Below, piece by piece: positions 4,373 through 40,529 of a DNA stretch of 64,000 nt. The DNA comes from Polytrichum commune. Its lineage: Eukaryota; Streptophyta; Polytrichopsida; Polytrichales; Polytrichaceae. Below the pieces are notes generated by a model. It was not told the origin of the DNA and did no database searches. It saw only the letters and a program-made list of their open reading frames with translations. Numbering within the stretch: the first letter of the stretch is position 1; each line of letters begins with the position of its first letter. The position numbers and the translations under genes were made by a program. The DNA is taken from the NCBI GenBank assembly GCA_950295325.1, contig OX485805.1, positions 28,135,501-28,199,500 on the forward strand. The letters run 5' to 3'.

Positions 4373-5597
4373 GGGTGCTATTTGGTTCGTTTTTCATGTT
4401 CTCCAACTTCGACCGATTAGATTTACACAACAAAACTCCTGATGCATCAGCAAATCTACCATGAAAAATCTGCCAAAATCGCATGGAAATCGTATCTCCC
4501 CTTTATTTAGTTATGGTCATGGGAAGTGCATGTTTCTTGATTTCTTAACTCAATTCATAGATCCTCTCAATTGTGTTCACTATTGAATGTAGAGTACTTC
4601 TTAATATTCAAAGACATTATAGTCCAATCTCTTTTAAACATGTGTCTTTATGATTTGCTCTTTGATCCTCGCCGAATCACACACCAATCAAATCTAGGAG
4701 TTTGATTAAGAAAATGACCGAGTTAAGACCCATCTACCTTAATAAGGCTTGAAGGTGTATTAATTCACACACAACCAAGTAAAAGTTGAAGGTGTGCTTA
4801 AAGGAACATGGGTGTTATTTGGCAACTTTTCTTAATTGGGCCCTTATAAGGTAGAAACACAGAAAACGGTGAATGATTGCTACTAGTGTACTAGACTAGG
4901 GGTAGTATGATTCTTGTCTGGACCTAAAATGGCTCATTTTACAAGTGATGGCCCGAAAAGGATGCAGTGATTGGCTAGATAGATGTTGTTTCACACCCTT
5001 GCGATCACTTTTGGGTGGCATTGAGTTAACCGTGTTGTGTGCATTCGTATGCAAAGTAGGACATTTTGATGCTCAAATTAAGGAGACTCTAGTGTACAGT
5101 TAGGGGGGTTTGACTTACTTGCATCTTTGGGAAACTATAACTAATTAATTACAAAAAATAAAATTACAAAACAACCTGCATTCCTCATCATTTCATCTAC
5201 TCCATCTCTAAAGAATACTGCAAAAAAATTAAGCCACTATTTATGGCCGAATCATCTCATTTTCACCATTTTCCGTATTTGATTGGTGTGTAATTAGGTG
5301 AAGATCAAAGAACAAACACCATAAAGACACGTGGCATTAAGAAAGTGGACTATGTTATCACATTTTCTTAACTACTCCACACTCAATACTGAACACAACT
5401 GGACGGATATGCGTGTTTAGTTAAGGAATCAACAAATATGGACTTCCAATAACCATAACATTATCATGGAAGTTCTGATTTTCAATCCAACTTTTGATGA
5501 TGCTTCGTCATATATTTGCTAATTTATACAAGCTTCATTGTGTAAATTGCATTCGGAGAAGTTGGAGAATATGAAAAATTAACCAAATAACACCCCC
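4373..5597. mobile_element. Long-TIR (foldback-type) DNA element, non-coding
   Basis: Inverted arms of roughly 300 bases face each other. The left arm, 4373-4710, begins GGGTGCTATTTGGTT and includes TTCATGTTCTCCAACTTC and ACACACCAATCAAATCTAG. The right arm, 5270-5597, contains CTAATTACACACCAATCAAA in reverse and ends AACCAAATAACACCCCC. The arms are diverged but collinear. There is no transposase in the interior and no unambiguous target duplication. It resembles a MITE or solo foldback element of unknown superfamily. Confidence 0.7.
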
Positions 5598-6058
5598 ATT
5601 CCTTAAACTCTTTAACACTAGGGGGTGGTTGTGGTTGTGGGGTACTTTCTTTGATCATGTTTCCATGGGAAAAGCATAATAAATGCTAACCATTCCCACA
5701 ATCATCCCTTACCCATTAAACCCCTTATTACTCCACATGGTTAACCACCCTTGGGGTGGTTGTTCATGCTCATGTGGCATTACTAGAGAGCTTCAAGGCC
5801 AAGGTCCAGGGAGAAAGTTGAGGAGACATCCACTTTAGCACTATAATCAAAAGCTAACAAAGATCAAATTACTTCGATTTTCTCTTGAGCTTGAAACCTA
5901 AACCAATGATATAAAGTAACTCCACCATCAAAACAATCACAAGAATTTGCCAACCAAAAAAAAAATTTATTGTGAATGAAAAAACATAGTAGTTGTGATT
6001 CAATGTGGCGGTTAATCATAACCATATTTGTAGCGTAAATACCCTTTTCATCTTATAA
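5598..6058. other. No gene; short GGGGTGGTT inverted motifs
   Basis: No coding signal is seen. Around 5619-5750 a G-rich GGGGGTGGTTGTGG motif and a partly inverted copy (GGTTAACCACCCTTGGGG) suggest a ~130-bp MITE, but the ends are too diverged to call. Confidence 0.3.
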
Positions 6059-6545
6059 TAGTGGATTTGCGTTTACAATCAACCCTCCTATTGTTGTAAC
6101 ATGTGGAGTGGAGACAAGCAATGTATGGATTCCGGTGTAAGGTTGTTTTTAAGCGTAATTGAAGGCCATTAAAGATGTGCTTGCACCCAACTAAGTAAAA
6201 GTTGATGGTATGTCTAACTACTCTTGTATTTGAAGAGTGGATTTGACCTTGGTGATCGTGCCTCCCATTGGTACATTTTGTGGAGTGGAGACAAGCAGTG
6301 TATGGATTCTAGTGGAAACATTGCCTAAGAATAATTGAAGGGCATTGACGTTGCATTTATACACAAGTATTACAAGTTGGAGGTGCATGTATACTCATAA
6401 TTGAAGAGAGGATCCCAAGTGAATTTGACCTTGACGATCGTCTCTCTATTGGTGCATTCCATGGGGTGGAGACAAACAATTTATGGATACTCATGGAAAA
6501 GTTGTCTAGGACAAATTGTCTCGTACAAATCCTCTCCCATACTTT
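6059..6545. repeat. Three degenerate tandem units of about 178 bp
   Basis: Units share GTGGATTTG(A/C)(C/G)-TT near 6062, 6237 and 6418 (spacing about 175 and 181 bases). Each continues with a TGGAGTGGAGACAAGCA-TGTATGGAT-like block and an AATTGAAGGGCATT-like block. They are not coding. Confidence 0.7.
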
Positions 6546-26885: not shown

Positions 26886-28470
<1,585 letters not shown>

Positions 28471-28560
28471 GGGAAGCTATCTTATGAGCGATGAGCAGTG
28501 AGCGGTGAGCGGTGAGCAGTAACACATGAGCAATGAGCAGTAACATATGAGCAATGATTC
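28471..28560. repeat. MULE left terminal inverted repeat with TGAGCRR iterons
   Basis: GCTATCTTATGAGCGATGAG is followed by several tandem TGAGCRR units (RR = GA, AG or GG), then AGTAACACATGAGCAATG and another AGTAACATATGAGCAATG. The right end carries GCTATCTTATGAGCGGTGAG in inverse orientation with fewer units. Such subterminal iterons are the expected transposase-binding region. Confidence 0.8.
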
Positions 28561-28691
28561 CAAATTTAGTAAAGACACACGGGTTTAGGGTACACAACCA
28601 AAATTTTGACAAATTAATTGCATATTTTCAATTGTAAATTGCCAATATTTTAAATGAAGCACAAGTGAAAGGGCCCTATTTCCATAGATCA

Positions 28692-28925
28692 TTTAAAACA
28701 CTTTCAATTCATTGCTGATTTTTATTATAATAATCCAAACCAATACATGTCATTTATTGACATCCTTATACATGTAATTACAACCAACACTTGCACAACT
28801 ACTCACATTCCACAACACCATCAAGCTCAAGTAGGTGCATAACCTCATTATACGTACATGTAGGTGCCATAATTGTGAGCCACTCAAACTGCTCACGGGT
28901 TGAATTAAGGCCCAGAATCTACAAA
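28692..28925. repeat. Duplicated 3' end of the transposase gene (outer copy)
   Basis: This stretch parallels 29,270-29,490: CATTGCTGATTTTTATTATA, CATGTCAT, then the coding end that on the minus strand reads TYTYNEVM-LLEL-G-VECE followed by a stop. The copy is diverged. It implies a direct duplication of the terminal exon and 3' UTR within the element. Confidence 0.7.
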
Positions 28926-28984
28926 TGAAAGGAAATTAGATATTAGAAATAGTCAATATGTAGGTAACTACTAGATTTTGAAAC

Positions 28985-29165
28985 ATCCGCCTGTGGATGC
29001 GAGTTGTGTAAGAGACTGGTATTAGGTCTGTATCAACCCGGGTTCGAATCCGGTTGGTTACATTGACTGGTGCTATCCCAAATTGAGCTAGTGATAAAGC
29101 AGGAATAATTTATAGGCGGATACCAAGAAGACGTTACTACGCGGATGTGCGTAGAATCTTCTCAA
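28985..29165 (+). repeat. tRNA-like promoter fragment, candidate SINE
   Basis: A perfect RNA polymerase III B-box GGTTCGAATCC lies at 29,041-29,051. A weak A-box-like GGATGCGAGTTGTGTAAGAG lies about 45 bases upstream. The stretch lies between the two copies of the transposase 3' end and ends before a T/A-rich tract. It does not fold as a full tRNA by eye. No clean target duplication is visible. Confidence 0.4.
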
Positions 29166-29374
29166 TTATTTTTTATTTTTAGAAACTTGTTATTATTTAT
29201 CCATGTCAATCAATCAAACCGCTCACGGTTGGGTCGTAGTCTAAATAGAAATGAAGTTACTGAATCATTTGAAATACTTCCAGCCCATTGCTGATTTTTA
29301 TTATAAAAATCCAAACAAAAACATGTCATATTTTGACATTCAAATATATGGTACTTAATAGACCATTTGCAATA

Positions 29375-32300
29375 CTACTCACACTCTACAATACCAGCAA
29401 GTTCAAGTAGTCGCATGACCTCGTTATAGGTATATGTAGGTGCATGAATGAACTTGTCACTCTCGTAATCCACCTTGCACAAAAATCTAAACACATAATA
29501 AAGATGTTTACAATACACCCATTTTCCTTTATTTCCCAATGCATGAGAGGACATTTTCGTGAAATCCGGGCATGTGCAATGCGGGATGTCGCCAATTGTG
29601 ACATGGTAGGTGATATCATGCTTGGAGACAATGTTGATTATCACTCCAAAGCCCGGATATGGAATGGCAGTGACCCCAACCACATAGTAACCCTCCATGA
29701 GCCCGGCGCTCTCCCATTTGTTTTTGTGATCCGCTAGCGGTGTTGTTGGATTACGACGCACTGTCTTTCCAAACCTGAATGTAGGGTGGGCGTCCGGGTT
29801 TGGTGGCATAGAAAAATGCGAGCGAGGGATGGGGAGAGTTGCGATTGTTGAAAGTCTACGACGAGGGAACAATGCCTCCCTCTGCTGTAGTTGAAATCCA
29901 GCATCTTCAAGTGCCAAAACCTCCTCTCACGATAGATTGGTACCTATCTTCACCGGCCATGTGTTGGGTACTATAGGCCAGTCCAACACATATTTCTTCT
30001 TACTGCCACTCACACAACGTTTGATGTCGTCAGGGCAAAACCAAAATTCATACTCCACATTGTTGGGAGAGCGAAATTCCTTCCTGAGCCCTTTGTATGT
30101 TGGAGCAGGTGTGCCATGTTTCCCAGTCCCGACTTTGACATTACACATAGTCCCTGTGATGGCCTGCAGTGCCCAACATCGTTTGGCTGAGTTGGGTGGT
30201 AATCTTGTAATGTGCCACTTGGAAGCAAGACAATCTGTCTCTAACACGGATGTAGTATGAGCCACACCATGAATTGTAGAACTCAACGATTCCTCTATGC
30301 GTTGACGAGTTGCTCGGGTGTTCGGACGAGGAATGGAATAGTTCACTTTGTCGGGTCGATGAGAGTCACAATCAACACCCGGTGGTAGGTTGAGTTTGCA
30401 TTTGGTGGAACCAAAGAGCTCTGACCCTTCCAATGCACAATCTCTAGTGTTGACGTCTTCTGCCCCTGGATAAGACTTCATGGCATCGGCCAACATTTTT
30501 GGATCTCCACACCTGACAGCCGCTTTGAGTTTCAAGGATGCTGAATCAGGACCTTTACCATCAGACCCCCCTTTCAACCATGTCCGGTAATTTGCAATTT
30601 GTATGAAGGCACGGATCATGTCGTCCACTGTAGCTTCATATAAACAAGTCATCTTGTTGCCGGACTGTTGGAGCCATTTGTTGTGTACAGTCTCTGCAAG
30701 GTTACATGTTGGCATTTCCGCACGCTCTTCTATTGTCATATCCTATGAACAACACACAAATACAAGGATAAGACAAACATAAGATAAATTATATATCTAG
30801 GTTTGGGTCGTTCAACCCAAAATGACTGCCACGTTTGGGTCGAACGACCCAAACTGCCTACAAGGTTTGGGTCGAATGACCCAAACTGTTTGTTGTTTGT
30901 TATGTACAGTCTCTGCAAGGTTGCATATTGGCATTCCCGCACGCTCTTTTATTGTGATATCCTATGAACAACACAGAAAGACAAAAATAAGAAAAACATA
31001 GGATATATTACATTGAATAATGAAGTTTGATATGTACTTACAAGTAGCATATGGCCACCCCATTGTCTGTAACGAAAGTGCCAAAATCCCAACCACTCTG
31101 AAAGGCCAAGGATGCCTTCTTCGGATGCAGCTCCAGATGACAACCACCAAGAACGAATCACATGGTACTTGGTCTCAGCGTCGTCCATTGTTTTCGCGTC
31201 TTTGTAATCCTTGCATATTTGTTTGTGTTGAAATTGCAAGGATGGTTTGATATACTTTTGGGTCACCTTATCCAAGCTTGCGGACCAATGGAAAAGACAT
31301 GTACGCTCACGTGCAACCATGGGTAGACTTGGATCACCATCCCCGTAAATTGCCCTCACCGCATTCCAATTAGTTTGAGCACTATCAGCCATAAACCCTT
31401 TGAAGTTTACGTTTGATACATCATTATCTGCCATGACAACATTCAAATTTTCCCAAAAGAGAATTTGCGCTGCACCATCTTCAGATTGCATGTCACAACA
31501 CGCAATAGTCAACACTTTACAGTATCGACTGTCGTACACATGGCAAGCCATGGTCGTCCAGTCCTTCAAACGTTTGAGATGGTCAAACATAATCCATGAA
31601 TTCTCCATATCCCCACCGACTTGCATCCTCTTCACAAGCTCCACACCACTACCTGGAAGGTCTACAGACATCTTAAAAACAAACACTTTGTCCTTTGACT
31701 GCCTTGGGAACCGACTACCATGGACGAATTTGAAAGCAGAGTGGTCTTTGAGCGCCATAATACTATCCATAGTTCCCATTCCACTACGCAAAAAACGCTT
31801 TGATCCAGATACAAAGTTACGACAATTTGGAGAGGCAAGAGTGCTGAATTTGTCCATGACGACCTATAGGGATGAACCAACCAAGTGATGGCCTTCGACA
31901 TTTGCGGAAGATTTGAGAAGGTAATTGGCCAAAAATTGTTTGCTCGCCGCCATAACTATGGTTGAATTTTTTGCTGTGGGTGTTTTCAATACTTCATTTG
32001 CAACGCATTGGTATGCCATGTCCAATGATTCACGGCATGTGCCATTGGCCAGAGGGTGATCATGTACACCAAGATGAATGCAAGCCCTGGACATTCCAAC
32101 GGATGTGGAGTGAATGTATATGATTCGAGCATTACACAAAGCAATGCACACAGGTGTGGAACGACATACCTTACACTCGACAGTGGACTTAGTAGGGGGA
32201 ACAACACCCACAGTAAATGGGATAGGAGTTGAACCGGCCCATTCAGTGTTGTTCCGGAGGCCCCCATTGCGATTCATGTAATCATAGTAGTCATTATGAC

Positions 32301-33177
32301 ATTGAAGATGACCAGCACAAGTAGAGCACCGGAAGGACAGTCCAAAGTCATTTTGGATATTCGTGGTTTTGGTGGTGCACCAAGGGTGACCGTCGCACAT
32401 CTTGTCAATGCCGTCCATTGAGCGACCATACGTACTTGGAGCTTTGAGTGCCACATGAGGCAAGAGAAATAAAACATCACCATTAAAAGAAGATGGTAAG
32501 TACTTGACTTCACGAACATCTATACTGTCAAAATCAATGGATGCAAGATCGGACTTTGATCTTTTTTTTGACTTTGTCAGCTTCAAGGCATCAACCATAG
32601 TCAACCCTGTAGATGAAGGTGAAGGGTGTAGTGGAGGACGTTGAGAAGGTGAGATTTGGGGAACCACCTTCTTGTACATAAGACCGCAAGGGGATTTGGC
32701 TACATGTATAGGAAGTTGGGAAGGAGTAGAATGAACACTTCTAAATGGAAATGGCGATGTGTTTGGAAGATCAATAGATGCACAAATGTCTTCTTCTGAA
32801 TCTGATAGCACAAATATACTATCATCAAGGGGTTCCACCTTAACAGGTGTGATAGAGGGAATTTGAACTGTGGATGTACCGGATTCGTTTGTCAAAATGA
32901 CAGTTGAAGCTTGCATTTGAGACTCAGAAAGTTCTATCACCTTAAATGAACCAGGTCCTAAGATCCACATAAAACCAACATCAGTTCTATTTTTTGGAAC
33001 CAAAATCGTTTCATACACCTCTCCATCTGCAGAGTACATCTCATGCTCTAAATACATGGTTCCTATCTGGAGATTGAATCTCAAACTAAATAAATCCTCT
33101 GAAACACTCACATGACCATCATCTTGGAGTGGCAAGATGAAGGGAACAAAAGATCCATGAGCTCTAATGGTAGCCAT
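29375..33177 (-). CDS. MULE transposase gene, two exons, two in-frame stops
   Basis: Exon A is 33,177-31,042 (donor CTT|GTAAGT). Exon B is 30,742-29,375 (acceptor TTCATAG). Both are phase 0, giving about 1167 codons. Domains in order: a Ser/Pro-rich N-terminus (~1-235); a zinc-binding segment with CDGHPWCTTKT, FRCSTCAGHLQCHNDYYDY, CRSTPVC and HLGVHDHP, resembling the WRKY-GCM1-type fingers of MULEs; the MULE core with FMADSAQTNWNAVRAIYG and CLFHWSASLDKVT, then WHFRYRQWGG; and a C-terminal SWIM finger CTCPDF...YCKHLYYVFRF. In-frame TAG (31,864-31,866) and TGA (29,927-29,929) interrupt it. Each is one transition from CAG and CGA. The gene is divergent from the methyltransferase-like gene. Cut-and-paste transposition is the family role. 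Confidence 0.8.
30676..31012. repeat. Duplicated exon-B start flanking a palindrome triplet
   Basis: The segment 30,676-30,790 (exon B start, its TTCATAG acceptor and adjacent intron) is repeated at 30,893-31,012 with about a dozen differences. Both include GTACAGTCTCTGCAAGGTT, GCACGCTCTT and ATCCTATGAACAACACA. The three 32-bp-spaced palindromes at 30,801-30,886 lie exactly between them. Splicing could in principle use either acceptor; only the inner copy keeps the long open frame. Confidence 0.8.
30801..30886. promoter_or_regulatory. Three palindromes at 32-bp spacing (transposase intron)
   Basis: Half-sites GTTTGGGTCG are followed by their reverse complement CGACCCAAAC, with variable centres (TT, AA, AA), starting at 30,801, 30,833 and 30,865. 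The left-most has a decayed right half. The sequence and 32-bp period equal those of the large array at 35,418-35,778 near the other gene. They are likely protein-binding sites, not coding. Confidence 0.85.
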
Positions 33178-33699
33178 AGAAAATTAAAAAAACATATGAA
33201 CAACACATCACAAAAATATGGGGTGAATGTTGCTTTTGTATAGAGTTGTGTGAGGAAATGAATGGAAATAAAAACGTGTGATACAATAATGGATGGAGAT
33301 GAAAGCGTGTGATAAATAACATCTAATAATACAGAAGTGGACATAATACAATAATAGTCAGAGACTATTTACGAGCAAGATATACACAAAACGGCGTCAA
33401 ATACTAAAAGGATTGGTAGAAATTTAAAATATATATGTGTGGACTGACGCAGATGTAGAAAGAATTAAAATTGGTTGGAAAAATAAATTATTGATTATTA
33501 TGAATAGAACAAAGTAGGTGTCAGAAAATTTTGGCGGATATAACAAAAATAAACACATAATGACAAACGCGTTGAAATATCTCGTTCATTGAACACCAAT
33601 TACAACATGTGATCGTAATATACGCCGGATTTTGTGAGATAGATACATTGGAAGAATAAATGATAGTACCTGATAGAAAACATATCATAGACACCAACG
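33178..33699. promoter_or_regulatory. Divergent intergenic region between the two MULE genes
   Basis: About 520 AT-rich bases separate the two opposing start codons, so both promoters are expected here. I see no palindromes of either family and no unmistakable TATA box. Repeated ATAATGGATGGAGATGAAAG / ATGAATGGAAATAAAAACGT-like stretches occur near 33,255-33,310. The assignment rests on gene orientation. Confidence 0.5.
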
Positions 33700-34105
33700 A
33701 TGGTAGACGATGTAGAGAGAACACCCGTGAGGCCGAAGAGAAGACGTAGGAAAGCTTTGTATTTCACTTCCGACAAAAAGAGGTTCAGACTCAGTGTGGG
33801 AAAGAATGATGCAAAAAAGGAAGGGAAAAGAAACTTATTGAGTACGGTAGAAGAAACTGTGAAGACACTGGATTTTGATGCGATGGAGGATGATGAAGGT
33901 GCAAAGAGCAAAGAAGATGTAGACGATCGTATATCAGAGTCCGAATTGAAGACGGGTTCAAAGAAGACGACAAACAAAAAGGTAAATCAGTTCAACGTTC
34001 ACATAATTTGATAGTGTATAAGTTGTAAGTTAGGACGGAGAACCTTGTACGATCACTTACATGTCATGTAGTAGCAATTTATAGAGGTTATAAATTGGAG
34101 AGGAG

Positions 34106-34530
34106 AAACCCTATACGTTAATGCACTTGGTATATAACAGAAATTTAGAAAGGCTAGAAGTCAGGAGGAGAACGCACAGGGTTTATAAGAGCAACTTAAG
34201 AGACGAGAAGTTGGGAGGCGAAACCATGTGCGTTAGCGTACAGGGTTTATAAGAGCAACTTAAGAGGCGAGAAGTTAGGAGGTGAAACCCTGTACGTTAA
34301 CGCACAGGATTTATAAGAGCAACTTAGGAGGCAAAAAGTTGGAAGGCGTTAATAAGGCCAAAAGTTGGGAGGAGAAACCCTGTGCGTTAACGCACAGGGT
34401 TTATAAGCGCAACTTAGGAAGCCCAAAGTTGGGAGTAGAAACCCTGTGCGTTAACGCACAGGGTTTGTAAGCGTAACTTAGGAAGGCCAAAGTTGGGAGG
34501 TAAAACCCTGTGCGTTAACGCACAGGGTTT
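34106..34530. promoter_or_regulatory. Palindrome family 2: GTGCGTTAACGCAC sites at 64-bp spacing
   Basis: Half-site AAACCCTGTGCGTT is followed directly by its reverse complement (28-base perfect palindrome at 34,375-34,402). Sites start at 34,106 (decayed), 34,157 (half), 34,221, 34,285, 34,375, 34,439 and 34,503. Most intervals are exactly 64 bases, one is 90 and one 51. Spacers share TATAAG(A/C)GCAACTTA and a CAAAGTTGGGAGG-like block. The array lies in the long intron 1 of the methyltransferase-like gene. Confidence 0.85.
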
Positions 34531-34984
34531 GTAAGAGCAATTTAGGAAGGCCAAAAGTTGGGAAGTAAAACGACTAGGAGAGCCTAAAATTAAAACAAAT
34601 ATCTATTGTATGAATTTAAATCGATGTTCAGAACATAAGAGCAAAAAAACTATTCAAAACGAGGTGAGAATGCAAGAAATGACAAATATGATTACTCAAG
34701 TACTCATGCAATACGTTATAGAAGCTAGAAAATGACATAAAATAGCATAAATTTTTTTTTGCCCCGAAACCCAAATTTACGAGGTGGCCCAAAACAAAGA
34801 AATAGATAGAAGAATGAGAAAAGAAAATCATTTCAAACCAAAACAAAACATCATAAGAATTTGTAGCTACGAAGATTTAGATAATATAGCATATTTTTGT
34901 TTTTTTTTTTATCCCATTAGCATTTTTTCCAGATTTTACAAGTTTTGGCAAATCTACGAATTCCAACATTTCAAAGTCACGTCT

Positions 34985-35210
34985 CGGCCCTGTGCGTTAA
35001 CGCACAGGGTCTATGTGCTAACGCACAGGCCTTATGTGCTAACGCACAAGGTATATGCGATAACGCATAGTAACTAGAAAGTTGCCAGCACAAACCCTGT
35101 GCGTTAACGCACAGGGCCTACTTGCCTAGCTAGAGGCTTCGCAAAATTGGGCAAGTAGACCCTGTGCGTTAACGCACAGGGTCTGCGCTGGCAACTTTCT
35201 AGCGGCTATG
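34985..35210. promoter_or_regulatory. Palindrome family 2: four sites at 21-bp spacing and an inverted pair
   Basis: Four sites are centred at 34,998.5, 35,019.5, 35,040.5 and 35,061.5, exactly 21 bases apart, with the first the best match. Two further perfect sites are centred at 35,105.5 and 35,170.5. These two sit inside a larger inverted repeat whose outer arms are CTAGAAAGTTGCCAGC (35,074) and GCTGGCAACTTTCTAG (35,192). Confidence 0.85.
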
Positions 35211-35417
35211 CGGGGCCACGAAGAGCCATGCTAAATATGGCTGCAGGGACAAGTAGTATTAATTGCCACAACCCCAAAGCATTCAGTTTTTTTTCTCTCC
35301 TCCGTCGGACCTGAGCTCATCGCTGCAAGCTCTCTCATCTACAGGTGCAATACAAGGTTTGTTTGCACTTTCGTGGTGACTGGATAATTGCGCATAATCA
35401 GGCGTAAATTGCGGACA

Positions 35418-35778
35418 GTTTGGGTCGGCCGACCCAAACTGTGTGCCTAGTTTGGGTCGGCCGACCCAAACTGTGTGCCTAGTTTGGGTCGGCCGACCCA
35501 AACTGTCTACCTAATTTGGGTCAGTCTACCTAATTTGGGTCAGTCGACCCAAACTGTGAGCATGGTTTGGGTCGACGGACCCAAACTGTCTACCTAGTTT
35601 GGGTCGGCCGACCCAAACTGTGAGCCTAGTTTGGGTCGATCGACCCAAACTGTCTACCTAGTTTGGGTCGGCCGACCCAAACTGTGTGCCTAGTTTGGGT
35701 CGATCGACCCAAACTGTCTCCCTAGTTTGGGTCGGCCGACCCAAACTGTGAGCATGGTTTGGGTCGTTCGACCCAAAC
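35418..35778. promoter_or_regulatory. Palindrome family 1: array of 11 sites plus a half-site in 32-bp register
   Basis: Sites GTTTGGGTCG-NN-CGACCCAAAC (22 bases) start at 35,418, 35,450, 35,482, 35,514 (half only), 35,533, 35,565, 35,597, 35,629, 35,661, 35,693, 35,725 and 35,757. All intervals are 32 bases except one 19-base slip. Centres are mostly GC or AT (forming GGCC or GATC). Spacers alternate short versions of TGTGTGCCTA and TGTCTACCTA. The array ends about 250 bases before exon 2 and lies inside intron 1 of the methyltransferase-like gene. Confidence 0.92.
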
Positions 35779-38700
35779 CTCGCGTCCAACTTTGTTAGAC
35801 CTGTAGTTGGACGCACAGGGTCTGGCCTTGTAGTTTTGGGGTGAGCGGCCACCCTAATCGTACAATATTTAAAGGTACAAATGACTGTGTCTAGAATAAT
35901 TTTTGTCATTCTTCCTTGTGTTCGTGGTATTCTGTTGTTATTGTTGTTGCTATTGCTGTTGTTTTTGTAATGTTATTGCTAATGTGTTGCTACTTGTTTT
36001 GAAATATTTATGAAACTTATTTCATTTGTTTTAGGACCAATCAATGGATTTGGAAAGAACGACTCCTATTTCTAGTGATGATGATTCCACCATGCATTCA
36101 ACTCAAGATCGTCCATCTCAACAAGTTCATCATCATCAGGACATATCGTCAAATCTTCATAATAAGAAAAAGAAAAAAATAAATGAATCCCTCGTTGATT
36201 TTGACTCGGATGAAGATAATGATGGTGACAATAAAACTTATTAAGAGAAAGTGTGGGAGCTTACGAACAAACGAAAGGTCAATTCCACTTCCATAATTTC
36301 TTCAATCCGTGCTGGACCTAATGCTCGCTTGCGTGTACCCTTATGTCGCATGGTTCCTATGCCGATTGTGCGTCCTGCTTTGAAGGGTGATATTACTAAA
36401 TTGGAGGCTGATTTTTTCAATGGTTATCGTGATGGTGACCGTGTGTTTTATATATCGGCCACCGATTCTAAGGGAAACTTTCAATTCGTGGATGATGAGG
36501 TTCGCGCATCTTGGAGCCCAAATTGGGCTCAAGCCAATGTCCTGTTTGAATCTCAATTGGATACAGATTTGTCATTGACGTCAAACAAGAACAAGATATT
36601 TTTTATATGGGATGGAAATCACAGATTTCTTGCTTGGAAAAATTATATTGACCGCGTATATACCGAAGATTATGAACGTCATGTCTTTGTGGATTTTATC
36701 ATTTTGGCGCCCGAGTCTGACGACATTCCAAGTTTGTTGACTACTCTGCATGACATCAACAAGTAATGTTCTTACCTATTTTTTTACACTTATTTCTAGT
36801 TTATATTTTGTTTTCCAAATTATATCATCATGAATCTAATCAATTTAATGTTTTTTTTAGGTCAACCGAAAATTCTCACGTATCCACCAATTTGGTGCAT
36901 ACTTTATATCGGATGCAAAGTATTGGCACCATGCCTTTGACTTCCTTCATAAAGCAACTGGATCCAAAGAGTTATAAACGATGTGAGGAGAAGTCCGTCA
37001 AAACTTGGTATTCTTTGACACGACCAATTTTTTTGGATTACATGTACAGTGTAAGTTCTTCTACCATTGCTAATATGTGCCTTATGTTTATTCACCTTCA
37101 TTTTACATTACATCTATATGAACTTATAAATATTGACTTTTGTTTGATTTTTCAGCAAGAACTTGCTGAGGCTAGCGATATTGCTCTCAACCAGTACAAT
37201 GAAATTCATCCTCTTGAACGGACATCAGACGGAATTTCAAAAGCAATGTCCGCAGCTGTCAACAAAAAACGTGCAATGTTCTCTTCTAGTTTTACGAAAC
37301 AACTAGCGATTGCCGATATCAACCTTACCTCTGCTTTCCTTGAAGAAGTTAAGCACCATTGGGGTTCATTTTCGGTGCCTGAAATGCTACAAGAGAAACT
37401 TCATTATGTTGCTGTCAGTAATGTGGATGCAGAAGTCAAAGTTGGATGGCTCAAGCTTTGGAATGGCAATAGATTTGACAAAGATGCATTGCATTTCCCG
37501 AAATCGCCCCTCTCTGATTCTGCACTTGATGATTGGTTATCAAAGTCTACATATTGGGCACAGTTGGAAAGAAAGGCTATCGAAGAGCTTCAAAGTATTC
37601 TTTCATCTCCTCTTCAGTTGCCTGTAGATGTGCCTACTCTCTTCGAGTATATCCAAACCTGGAAGTTTGCGGCTTTCAATTCAATATTCTATCGTGAATT
37701 CCAAAGCGGAAAAGTTAAAAAACACAACGGTTGGGATGAGCAACCTAATATTGATCTTGTTATGAAACGTGTATTATACAGGTACAACCTAATCTTATTA
37801 TTTTTTTGATTTTTTTTATGCCATTTGTCAAATTATCATGGAATATTTGACTTACAATATTTTTGTGTGTAGGTATTTTCGATATGTTTTGATTCCACAT
37901 AAATGCGTTATAGGGGAACCTCGTTTTTTCCCAAATTGGCGTGACACTGGTGCAGGAGATTCATGCATGTTCACTACTGAGATTTGTTTGGATTGGTCGC
38001 TCCCACACTATGAGGATTGTGGTTGGTATCTTGATTGTCCTAAGGATGCATGTCCGTGAAGTGAGAAGACAATCCGTTAGATAAATGATGCTAAAAATGT
38101 GGATCCTCGTGATACTGCAATTTTGAAAGCACAAATTGTGCAGCTTAAACTTAGAGAGCCAGAACCAAAAGAGACAAAACGTCGTAAGAGGAAACATGTT
38201 CCTGAAACCAAAATACAAGATCAATCGGAAATTTCACAACATAAAGATTTGCTTGTTCTTTCCAATGATTTGGATAAGAATCCACTTGGAGGCGAAAGTT
38301 CAAAGTCTGGGTGCGATGTATTGGAATTTCATTACTCGAGCACCTATGACGCTATTCATCGTGCGCCAACGAATGTTTTGAGAAAATAGTTATTCATACT
38401 GAAGAACTTTCTCACGCTCTCTTTTGCTCGATCTACTGCTGTCAAGAACAAGTCTGAAGGGGTTGAAGTAGGCCCTCCTGAGTGGATCCAATGGCGGACA
38501 TTTCTTGAAAACGTAAGTATTATTGTTTTGGTATTTTCTGTAATGTTCTTACTTTCATTTGGATTTTATTTTGTGTCTTATATTGTGATATGTTGTGGTA
38601 TTTCAGTTCAAAGACAATCGCGAATTTCATGTCATGGGAAGTCCGACTCCATTTGCCATTGACTTGGTTTTTCTGCAATTTCCCGACGGTCTTGACTTCA

Positions 38701-39862
38701 ACCTCTCCAATAGACCTGCTGAAATTCCTCTTTGGAATAAATATGACAAGAAATGCATGGTTGCAACAATGTCCTTGTGCAAGTCCATCTTGTCTGATGA
38801 TGGCGTCCTCATAGTATTTTCTGCTATCGATATGCAAACCAAGAAGGTTTTGAATTCAACCTTACACAACGGCAACATGAAAGTTCTTAGGACTTTTATT
38901 TGCCTCAATTCGTACATGGTGTTCAAGGATCTGGAGTCTCCAACCTACACCGTAAGTATAACATATCACAATTGTTTCTATTTAATTATTTTGGTGTTAT
39001 TTGCATTGTATATAGTTTTAACACAATTTATATTTTTTTGTAGATTCCGGCATTTATGGCTCATGTCTTGGTAAGGGATTTTACTACCACAAAATCCACG
39101 AGACAACCAAACTCCACTTTTTTTGGCACTGGATTGAAAAGCAAAAACTTGCTTTTCAATTTTGTGGATGAAAAAAACATGCTTCTTCAAAAATCGGGAA
39201 GACCTTGGAGGGGGCCATATCAAAAATCGCCGCGTTTTTTTCAAGATCTTATTGAATTGTTTACACCATCGAATGGACGCGTTGTTGATTTGACGTGTTC
39301 CACTGGAGCTTCTATCCTAGCAACACGCGCATGTGGCAGACATCTTCTTGCATTTGAGGGTGATAATGACATGTTTGAGCACATATTGAAACCTCTTTTG
39401 GAAAACGTTTTGAAAGAGGGGTCATCTAAGGAGAATATACAAGATCTCACAAAAGAAGATGATAACCTCTCAGATGAGGAGATGCTTGAATTTGAGTGTA
39501 AGTAAGTTTTAATACAATAAATTTTTATTCAATTCATTCGTTTCATTCAATTCATTGGTTCATTTTTATTTCTTCACATTATTTACATGTTTCATCGATT
39601 TGATTTAAGGAATACGATTGGAAAGAGGACATGTCTCCCGTTTTGGGCACATAGAGAATTCCTACGAAGTCCAAGCCGTAGCCCGCGTCTCCCATCATAT
39701 GCCGAGAATGTTGCAATTGCAATGTTGAATCTCGAAGATTCGGATCCAAATGAAGAATCTTGCTATAGTTCCAAAATCAATTCACAATGCAAAGGTGCTC
39801 GAATATATATAGATGACGAGGAAAAAGATAGTTTCATGTCTAGTGCTACTACTGATGAATAA

Positions 39863-40045
39863 ATTTTTGGACTTCATGTTGTTTATCCTTCTCAACCCTC
39901 TTATTACTAAACCCTAAAATCATCATTTTTAAGGCCACAATTCCACGGTTATAGGATATTGGTGGCCCTATTACCAAAATTTTCATCTTCCTCACTGCTC
40001 ATAAGTTACCGCTCATCGCTCACCGCTCATAAGATAGCACTCCCC
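39863..40045. repeat. 3' flank and right terminal inverted repeat of the MULE
   Basis: After the last exon comes an AT-rich tail (CTAAACCCTAAAATCATC). From 39,995 the terminal repeat follows: CTGCTCATAAGTTACCGCTC, ATCGCTCACCGCTCATAAGA, TAGCACTCCCC. It is the inverse of the left end, with fewer heptamer units. Confidence 0.8.
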
Positions 40046-40529
40046 GTTCAAACATGATCCTTGGCCATGACTAAGTTACTCCAAGTAGAATACTCCTCTT
40101 GGTGATTTGTCCTTGTTCCTCTCACTTTCCGCACGTATCAACTATTCTAGTGAGTATGCACAAAGTCACCTCACCTTGCGCTTGCGTGAATAGTAAGAAA
40201 AGGAGGCTTCTTTTAGGGTCAGGGGTTTATATTGGAGTTCTTACCTATGGTAAGTTCTTCCAAACCATGTTTTTTACCATGGGTTACATACGTGATTCAC
40301 GGTTGTAATCATGGTTACTATACCTCTTTCATCTACATCCTCGTTACATATCTGGTATGGAAAGTATGATCATTTTCCATGTATGTATATGTAGGATCTC
40401 TTGCTTGTATTGTAATCTATTTGTAAAGAAAACAATTTTTAGTTGACTAATGTGAAAGTTTATAATCACAAAGTGTTTAATATCGTAGCCTTGATCAAGA
40501 ACTAGAGAGAGAGAGAGAGAGAGAGAGAG
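40046..40529. repeat. GA-bounded repeat unit R2, right part
   Basis: It resumes R2 after the MULE: GTTCAAACATGATCCTTGGC, CATGACTAAGTTACTCCAAG, TAGAATACTCC, CTCTTGGTGA, then AGGGTTTATATTGGAG and GGTAAGTTCTTCC. It ends in a GA tract (40,504-40,529). The order matches R1 (20,953-21,414) with about 10-20 percent visible differences. Confidence 0.82.

Follow-up and report, generated by a model that had tools for sequence, protein, structure and literature searches.

A 22-bp palindrome of Polytrichum commune, GTTTGGGTCGNNCGACCCAAAC (palindrome A), occurs in arrays in two types of transposon, where its arms are conserved against differing spacers, and related clades of one of these types carry different palindromes. 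The window, the whole 64,000-nucleotide stretch of contig OX485805.1 that was analysed, holds two such arrays inside a MULE-like element with a non-transposase accessory (cargo) gene. Judged from the pattern of conservation, the palindromes are very probably sites for a binding protein. The chances appear about even that the A array represents cognate sites for a dimeric protein encoded by the transposon, most likely the cargo product, and serving epigenetic self-marking or anti-silencing.

Palindrome A and its carrier element in the window

Palindrome A gave 14 matches with three or fewer mismatches across the 64-kb window and none in 100 dinucleotide shuffles. All 14 sites lie within one transposon; the rest of the window contains none, and this includes an element of tnp2 type (CACTA-like) and an open frame that weakly matches reverse transcriptase. 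The window also has a BTB gene and a DUF3420 match slightly below its cut-off; with the tnp2 element, these point to a streptophyte.

The main array (Table 1) lies downstream of cargo exon 1 in an inferred intron and comprises nine exact palindromes, one with a single mismatch and one with two. The earlier note had described eleven palindromes and a half-site in a 32-bp register with one 19-base slip, and the mismatch scan and spacings bore this out: every step is 32 bp except one of 51 (32 + 19), within which the half-site falls. The identical spacing reported for the transposase gene was likewise confirmed at the small array, whose sites carry two, zero and one mismatches respectively. Over the MULE stretches analysed, 32 bp separates 84 of 96 neighbouring A pairs. 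A 118-bp direct repeat brackets the small array, with copies at 30677-30794 and 30896-31013, as if the array had arisen or been inserted amid duplicated sequence. The repeat copies, 88% identical, include the start of one transposase piece.

Table 1. Features of the carrier element, in positions of the 64-kb window.
Feature	Position	Strand	Description
MULE-like DNA transposon	28469..40045		11.6 kb; contains every A and B palindrome of the window
Left terminal inverted repeat	28476..28520	+	45 nt, 82% complementary to right repeat
Transposase gene pieces	29375..33183	-	Open frames 31864-33183, 30949-31863, 29927-30742, 29375-29926
Palindrome A small array	30801..30886		3 sites, spacing 32, in transposase gene
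Cargo exon 1	33700..33981	+	Basic N-terminus; followed by inferred GT-AG intron 33982-36034 holding A and B
Palindrome B (CCCTGTGCGTTAACGCACAGGG) array	34224..35181		Same cargo intron; 8 sites with 3 or fewer mismatches, 6 exact
Palindrome A (GTTTGGGTCGNNCGACCCAAAC) main array	35418..35778		11 palindromes of 22 bp and a half-site at 35514
Cargo exon 2	36035..36766	+	ParB-like motif FFIWDGNHRFLAW by eye; frame ends at 36766
Cargo exons, amino-methyltransferase-like domain	38589..39505	+	SAM-motif region VVDLTCSTGAS
Right terminal inverted repeat	39994..40038	-	Partner of the 45-nt left repeat

Target-site duplications of MULEs measure about 9-11 bp. The window element possesses terminal inverted repeats of 45 nt and a 10-bp duplication, GTTCAAACAT, at 28459-28468 and 40046-40055 (element ends and duplication read by eye), both hallmarks of a MULE. 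None of its transposase pieces matched Pfam at E 0.01, and one had 304 database relatives at E ≤ 0.001; the last contains a SWIM-like CxC..CxH, seen by eye. Copies of the transposase in stretches L009 and L018 share 90-98% amino acid identity with that of the window. Two in-frame stops on the minus strand (31864-31866 and 29927-29929) split the transposase frame, with identical piece borders in L009 and L018; shared decay, readthrough and unrecognised introns are alternative explanations.

The array is carried by other copies of the element, as the earlier note's reading requires: in a fixed-offset sample of further MULE copies, seven of ten hold both A and B arrays, the other three (L030-L032) being counted as misses where the stretch lay off this intron or at its edge. 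In the region of one of these copies (L031, 627-1602), GC-rich arrays of approximately 21-bp units, apparently in opposite orientations, lie beside a short intron-matching stretch.

Genome-wide distribution of palindrome A

The core of palindrome A yielded 9,731 exact matches in the genome against none for the reversed-pattern control, and no site was present in any of ten regularly placed 10-kb control regions on contigs C1 and C2. A viral origin of the palindrome was rejected, the core having no match in IMG/VR.

Ten 10-kb stretches (L009-L018) take in the first 100 A places listed on contig 1 and form two groups: copies or pieces of the MULE, with a spacing of 31-34 bp, and elements with a DUF7869 protein. 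The DUF7869 match (PF25273) has an E-value of 1.3e-41 in L017, and L012-L015 were assigned by DNA similarity. In L016 and L017 a ParB-like gene (motif DGQHS, by eye) stands alongside the DUF7869 gene. We infer that the DUF7869 protein is the transposase of this second element type. One captured end of the DUF7869-type elements reads ...TATAGTG, which we take to resemble the ends of CACTA elements. L016 further contains a gene for an NLI-interacting-factor-like (NIF-type) phosphatase (5251-6093, minus strand; PF03031, E 1.8e-13), an unusual transposon cargo.

Spacings of A in the DUF7869-type elements are many and for the most part fall at 35-85 bp. Viewed in reverse, L016 and L017 have A sites within two inferred introns of their ParB-like gene cluster, and a large array precedes the DUF7869 gene. 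Two palindromes of the same view (4383 and 4452) lie inside a 499-residue coding frame, where they encode stretches resembling FGSTDPN and FGSGDPN, and a third follows just after the frame. The earlier argument that all sites face one side of the helix is not supported as a rule, the same arms occurring at 36, 46, 57, 73, 78 and 79 bp; it was dropped because the DUF7869-type elements use spacings other than whole turns.

A near-random sample was defined as palindrome A followed by CATG 330 bases later, giving 80 places (34 + 46). At 39 of them a cargo-gene place, out of 290 listed, is no more than 15 kb away, a distance reached by 2.1% of random points. The 290 places are those among the matches listed, up to 150 per list; for the window exon 140 of 150 were used, the ten dropped being second-frame matches at places already counted. 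The 39 sites divide into 29 near the ParB-like gene (ParB2) of the DUF7869-type element and 10 near the MULE exon, one of which (C1:63995972) has a DUF7869-type flank. Palindrome A is thus not private to the window element, since 29 of the 80 sampled sites are near the ParB-like gene of another element type.

The other 41 sampled sites lie more than 15 kb from every listed gene place. Nineteen have flanks of the commonest flank family, that of an element whose listed copies carry ParB2. Of the remaining 22 sites, 4 fall at two further places that resemble DUF7869-type elements. At one (L047) the DUF7869 protein and its N-terminal neighbour are present; the other (L046) has no protein match and a DNA similarity of 67-79% to DUF7869-type elements, partly within the array itself.

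Palindromes B and C

The B array of the window has a spacing of mostly 64-65 bp. Its exact core occurs 490 times in the genome, with none for the control. Among the listed places, 10 of 11 B clusters lie 3.3-8.1 kb from a listed MULE cargo exon and one is beside exon 1. A third palindrome, C (GGTGTCTCGGTACCGAGACACC; 268 exact cores genome-wide, control 0), occupies the DNA upstream of a cargo exon that has diverged to 30% identity with that of the window (E 8e-9; next exon E 1e-10). Two of the three C clusters among listed places are beside a listed C-type exon and one is not. When 264 kb were scanned de novo for palindromes with perfect 9-bp arms, A, B and C, shifted registers included, were the only ones to occur more than twice. 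All three fit a 10-2-10 layout of two 10-bp arms about a 2-bp centre; variation of the centre was established for A and C only.

Upstream DNA was examined for six diverged cargo relatives (L040-L045). In L040 there are 19 C sites whose flanks match those of the C element, and C-like sites with other flanks occur in L041 (93% cargo identity, five sites) and L045 (72%, seven sites). The 85-bp array of L042 and L043 shows a weak palindrome of 10-2-10 layout, and the cargo region of L044 has a tandem array without a recurring palindrome. Where the array in L040 (683-1527) ends, the C palindromes are degenerate, and a change in one arm is mirrored in the other (TTTC/GAAA, TATC/GATA), as though variant half-sites had been retained in pairs.

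The cargo gene

The cargo gene lies on the strand opposite to the transposase both in the window and in the copy in L018. Exon 1 was matched also in L018 and L010. The ParB-like motif of exon 2 includes DGNHR (by eye), and the window copy is broken by an in-frame stop near 36242; stop-free copies exist. The SAM-binding part of the product matched the DNA methyltransferase families PHROG 67 (E 1.4e-5) and PHROG 3008 (E about 1.5e-5), and its match to PF01555 (E 0.061) was below the cut-off, no Pfam match of the cargo reaching its own. By eye, no catalytic DPPY is visible at the expected place, which reads DLVFLQFPDG in the window and DLILADIPES in L011. The methyltransferase-like exon is present in at least 55 nearly full-length copies at 90% identity or more, and 45 of those listed have no stop.

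The cargo is identified as putatively ParB-like from motifs seen by eye. Profile searches of the ParB-like products against Pfam, NCBIfam and PDB returned no ParB match, and ParB2 reached PHROG 1033 (ParB-like) at E 0.29 only. A profile comparison of the two ParB-like families, ParB1 and ParB2, found no similarity, and tblastn of P0189 and ParB2 on phages gave no match. An AlphaFold model of the ParB-like product was not used as evidence because its mean pLDDT was only 56.

Conservation of the arms and the nature of the sites

In the DUF7869-type elements (112 sites, L012-L017) the arms of palindrome A hold 1.79 bits, the centre 0.38 and the flanks 0.16; in the MULE copies (96 sites) the values are 1.78, 0.25 and 0.91. 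The centre dinucleotide differs among the window sites too, and the earlier statement that centres vary while arms are conserved stands. Between arrays it is the palindrome rather than the repeat unit that persists. These values bear directly on the possibility that the palindrome is part of a neutral satellite, a tandem unit expanding by slippage and travelling with transposons. Such an origin would account for copy numbers of 5-15 A sites per array in the seven MULE copies scored, for slips of 34 and 51 bp, and for the palindrome-free tandem array of L044. A satellite would have its whole repeat unit in common between arrays, whereas the flanks in DUF7869-type elements are as variable as the arms are fixed. 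Palindrome C behaves likewise, with pooled flanks of 0.1-1.3 bits over three flank contexts (the C element with L040; L041; L045) and most arm columns at 1.5-2.0. One palindrome at many spacings, in short intronic runs and twice in a coding frame, together with three palindromes of a single layout, also speaks against slippage, and we consider a neutral satellite unlikely. The genome-wide distribution agrees in that A is tied to two element types rather than being a plain satellite.

That several transposons exploit sites for a host factor, be it a transcription factor, an insulator protein or a protein of chromatin, appears improbable to a similar degree. The occurrence of A in two element types with unrelated transposase-like genes, and large arrays near divergent gene starts, would be expected of such sites. 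A single factor would not be expected to leave related MULE clades with different palindromes (B and C), and none of A, B or C was found in 100 kb of control regions.

Many DNA transposons contain internal transposase sites, and the palindromes might accordingly be bound by the transposase during transposition, as subterminal repeats are; the earlier note had named the transposase finger as one possible binder. The distance of the A arrays from the ends of the window element is 2.3 and 4.3 kb, and palindrome A also occurs in elements whose transposase-like gene is unrelated, which leaves this reading with a very low probability. The wider proposal of an element-encoded binder survives in its other part, that the ParB-like product would fit. 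A role at the RNA level, with palindromes in introns folding into hairpins or double-stranded RNA that would influence splicing or give rise to small RNAs, is just as remote: many sites are intronic and self-complementary, and two-sided arm changes exceed expectation (7 against 3.6 by chance), but over 223 sites 133 changes are one-sided, one of the seven two-sided pairs is complementary, 42 centres are self-complementary and large arrays lie outside introns too.

The hairpin was not favoured on account of this test of arm co-variation. A dimer that reads two half-sites would account for the excess of one-sided changes better than a hairpin under maintenance would. Fixed arms and mostly one-sided changes support arrays resembling sites for a putative dimeric protein, as the earlier note had supposed.

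Proposed function and comparison with known systems

From these patterns we infer binding by the cargo, the dimeric state of the binder and an epigenetic effect. A dimeric protein would read a 10-bp half-site twice over a 2-bp gap. Its likeliest identity would be the accessory protein combining ParB-like and methyltransferase-like parts; from the sequence features described, it is a toss-up whether the cargo protein binds the palindromes. Tandem multiplication of sites in introns and between divergent genes could permit bulk loading on the element that encodes the protein. The loaded protein might then alter the epigenetic state of the element, most likely by escape from silencing similar to that of VANC and VANDAL, or by marking. 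That anti-silencing or self-marking is the purpose of the arrays is put forward tentatively, with somewhat less confidence than binding by the cargo.

The presence of A in two unrelated element types suggests that one binder is shared or hijacked. A bolder reading, less likely than not, is an addressing code in which ParB-like/methyltransferase-like accessory proteins read clade-specific 10-2-10 palindromes, with A common to two unrelated transposon types, the protein of one serving the other or being hijacked by it. The explanation we prefer, cognate sites for a dimeric protein encoded by the transposon, is supported by the single layout of A, B and C with control patterns scoring zero, by the persistence of arms against flanks, and by the 39 of 80 sites near cargo genes. 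It is weakened by the failure of the ParB-like proteins to match a ParB profile or each other and the poor AlphaFold model of one, by the presence in the window MULE of both A and B, two candidates for its own cargo, and by three of six diverged cargo copies having a weak (L042, L043) or no recurring (L044) palindrome. The one C cluster in three without a listed C-type exon, the slight excess of two-sided arm changes together with the symmetric changes of degenerate C, and the 41 of 80 sampled sites distant from listed gene places count against it also.

According to two reports on Arabidopsis, VANC binds short motifs in tandem repeats within noncoding regions of VANDAL MULEs, with loss of DNA methylation, and its target motifs differ among related VANDAL families (PMC5735166, PMC10398659); the VANC6 motif is reported also from the unrelated repeat AT9TSD1 (PMC5735166, PMC10398659, PMC12859917). 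The window element is likewise a MULE with a non-transposase accessory gene and a short motif multiplied in tandem in its noncoding parts, save for the two coding-frame sites of one DUF7869-type element. Targets differ by family here too: the window family has A and B, its diverged relatives have C, and L042-L044 carry other arrays. DUF7869-type elements would be to A what AT9TSD1, as described there, is to VANC6, an unrelated carrier of the motif. The VANC21 motif as given there, YAGTATTAY, has nine bases and by eye no such symmetry, in contrast to 22-bp palindromes with 10-bp arms, and the window cargo differs from VANC in its ParB-like and methyltransferase-like motifs.

The account of ParB-methyltransferase accessory proteins reportedly goes back to Iyer 2011 and Petroll 2025. 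Algal transposons such as Sola1-1_Ec32 of Ectocarpus carry ParB-like and DNA methyltransferase accessory proteins, and the passage concerned suggests that these could bind the transposon that encodes them and modify it epigenetically (PMC12477816). In both systems, as far as that passage describes the algal one, the gene lies opposite to the transposase strand and has an amino-methyltransferase-like part and a ParB-like one, putative in the window cargo; the algal system differs in host and transposon superfamily (PMC12477816), and the methyltransferase-like part of the window differs from the accessory proteins described in lacking a visible DPPY. The term 'palindrom' is absent from the main text of that report, whose passage on accessory proteins names no target sites (PMC12477816), and no title or abstract opening among the papers that searches of the open-access literature listed names any for ParB-methyltransferase transposon proteins.

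In bacterial parS/ParB and in plasmid iterons, a protein of the ParB fold or a replication protein loads onto sites that are palindromic or repeated. The window arrays resemble these in consisting of palindromic or repeated sites, and differ in that the palindromes are longer than parS and are arrayed in tandem within transposons of a eukaryote; no feature observed points to a role in replication or partition.

By analogy with the algal proteins, the window palindromes are candidate targets of accessory proteins of the ParB-methyltransferase type. They provide ready probes: there are three sequences, their half-sites are clear, variants occur naturally, and A has two unrelated carriers. If the addressing code is true, they would represent target sites for algal-type ParB-methyltransferase accessory proteins and an independent counterpart of VANC and VANDAL, and sequence-specific self-marking by transposons would have evolved more than once. 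The recognition code would then be traceable as it shifts among clades, which would bear on the arms race between transposons and silencing.
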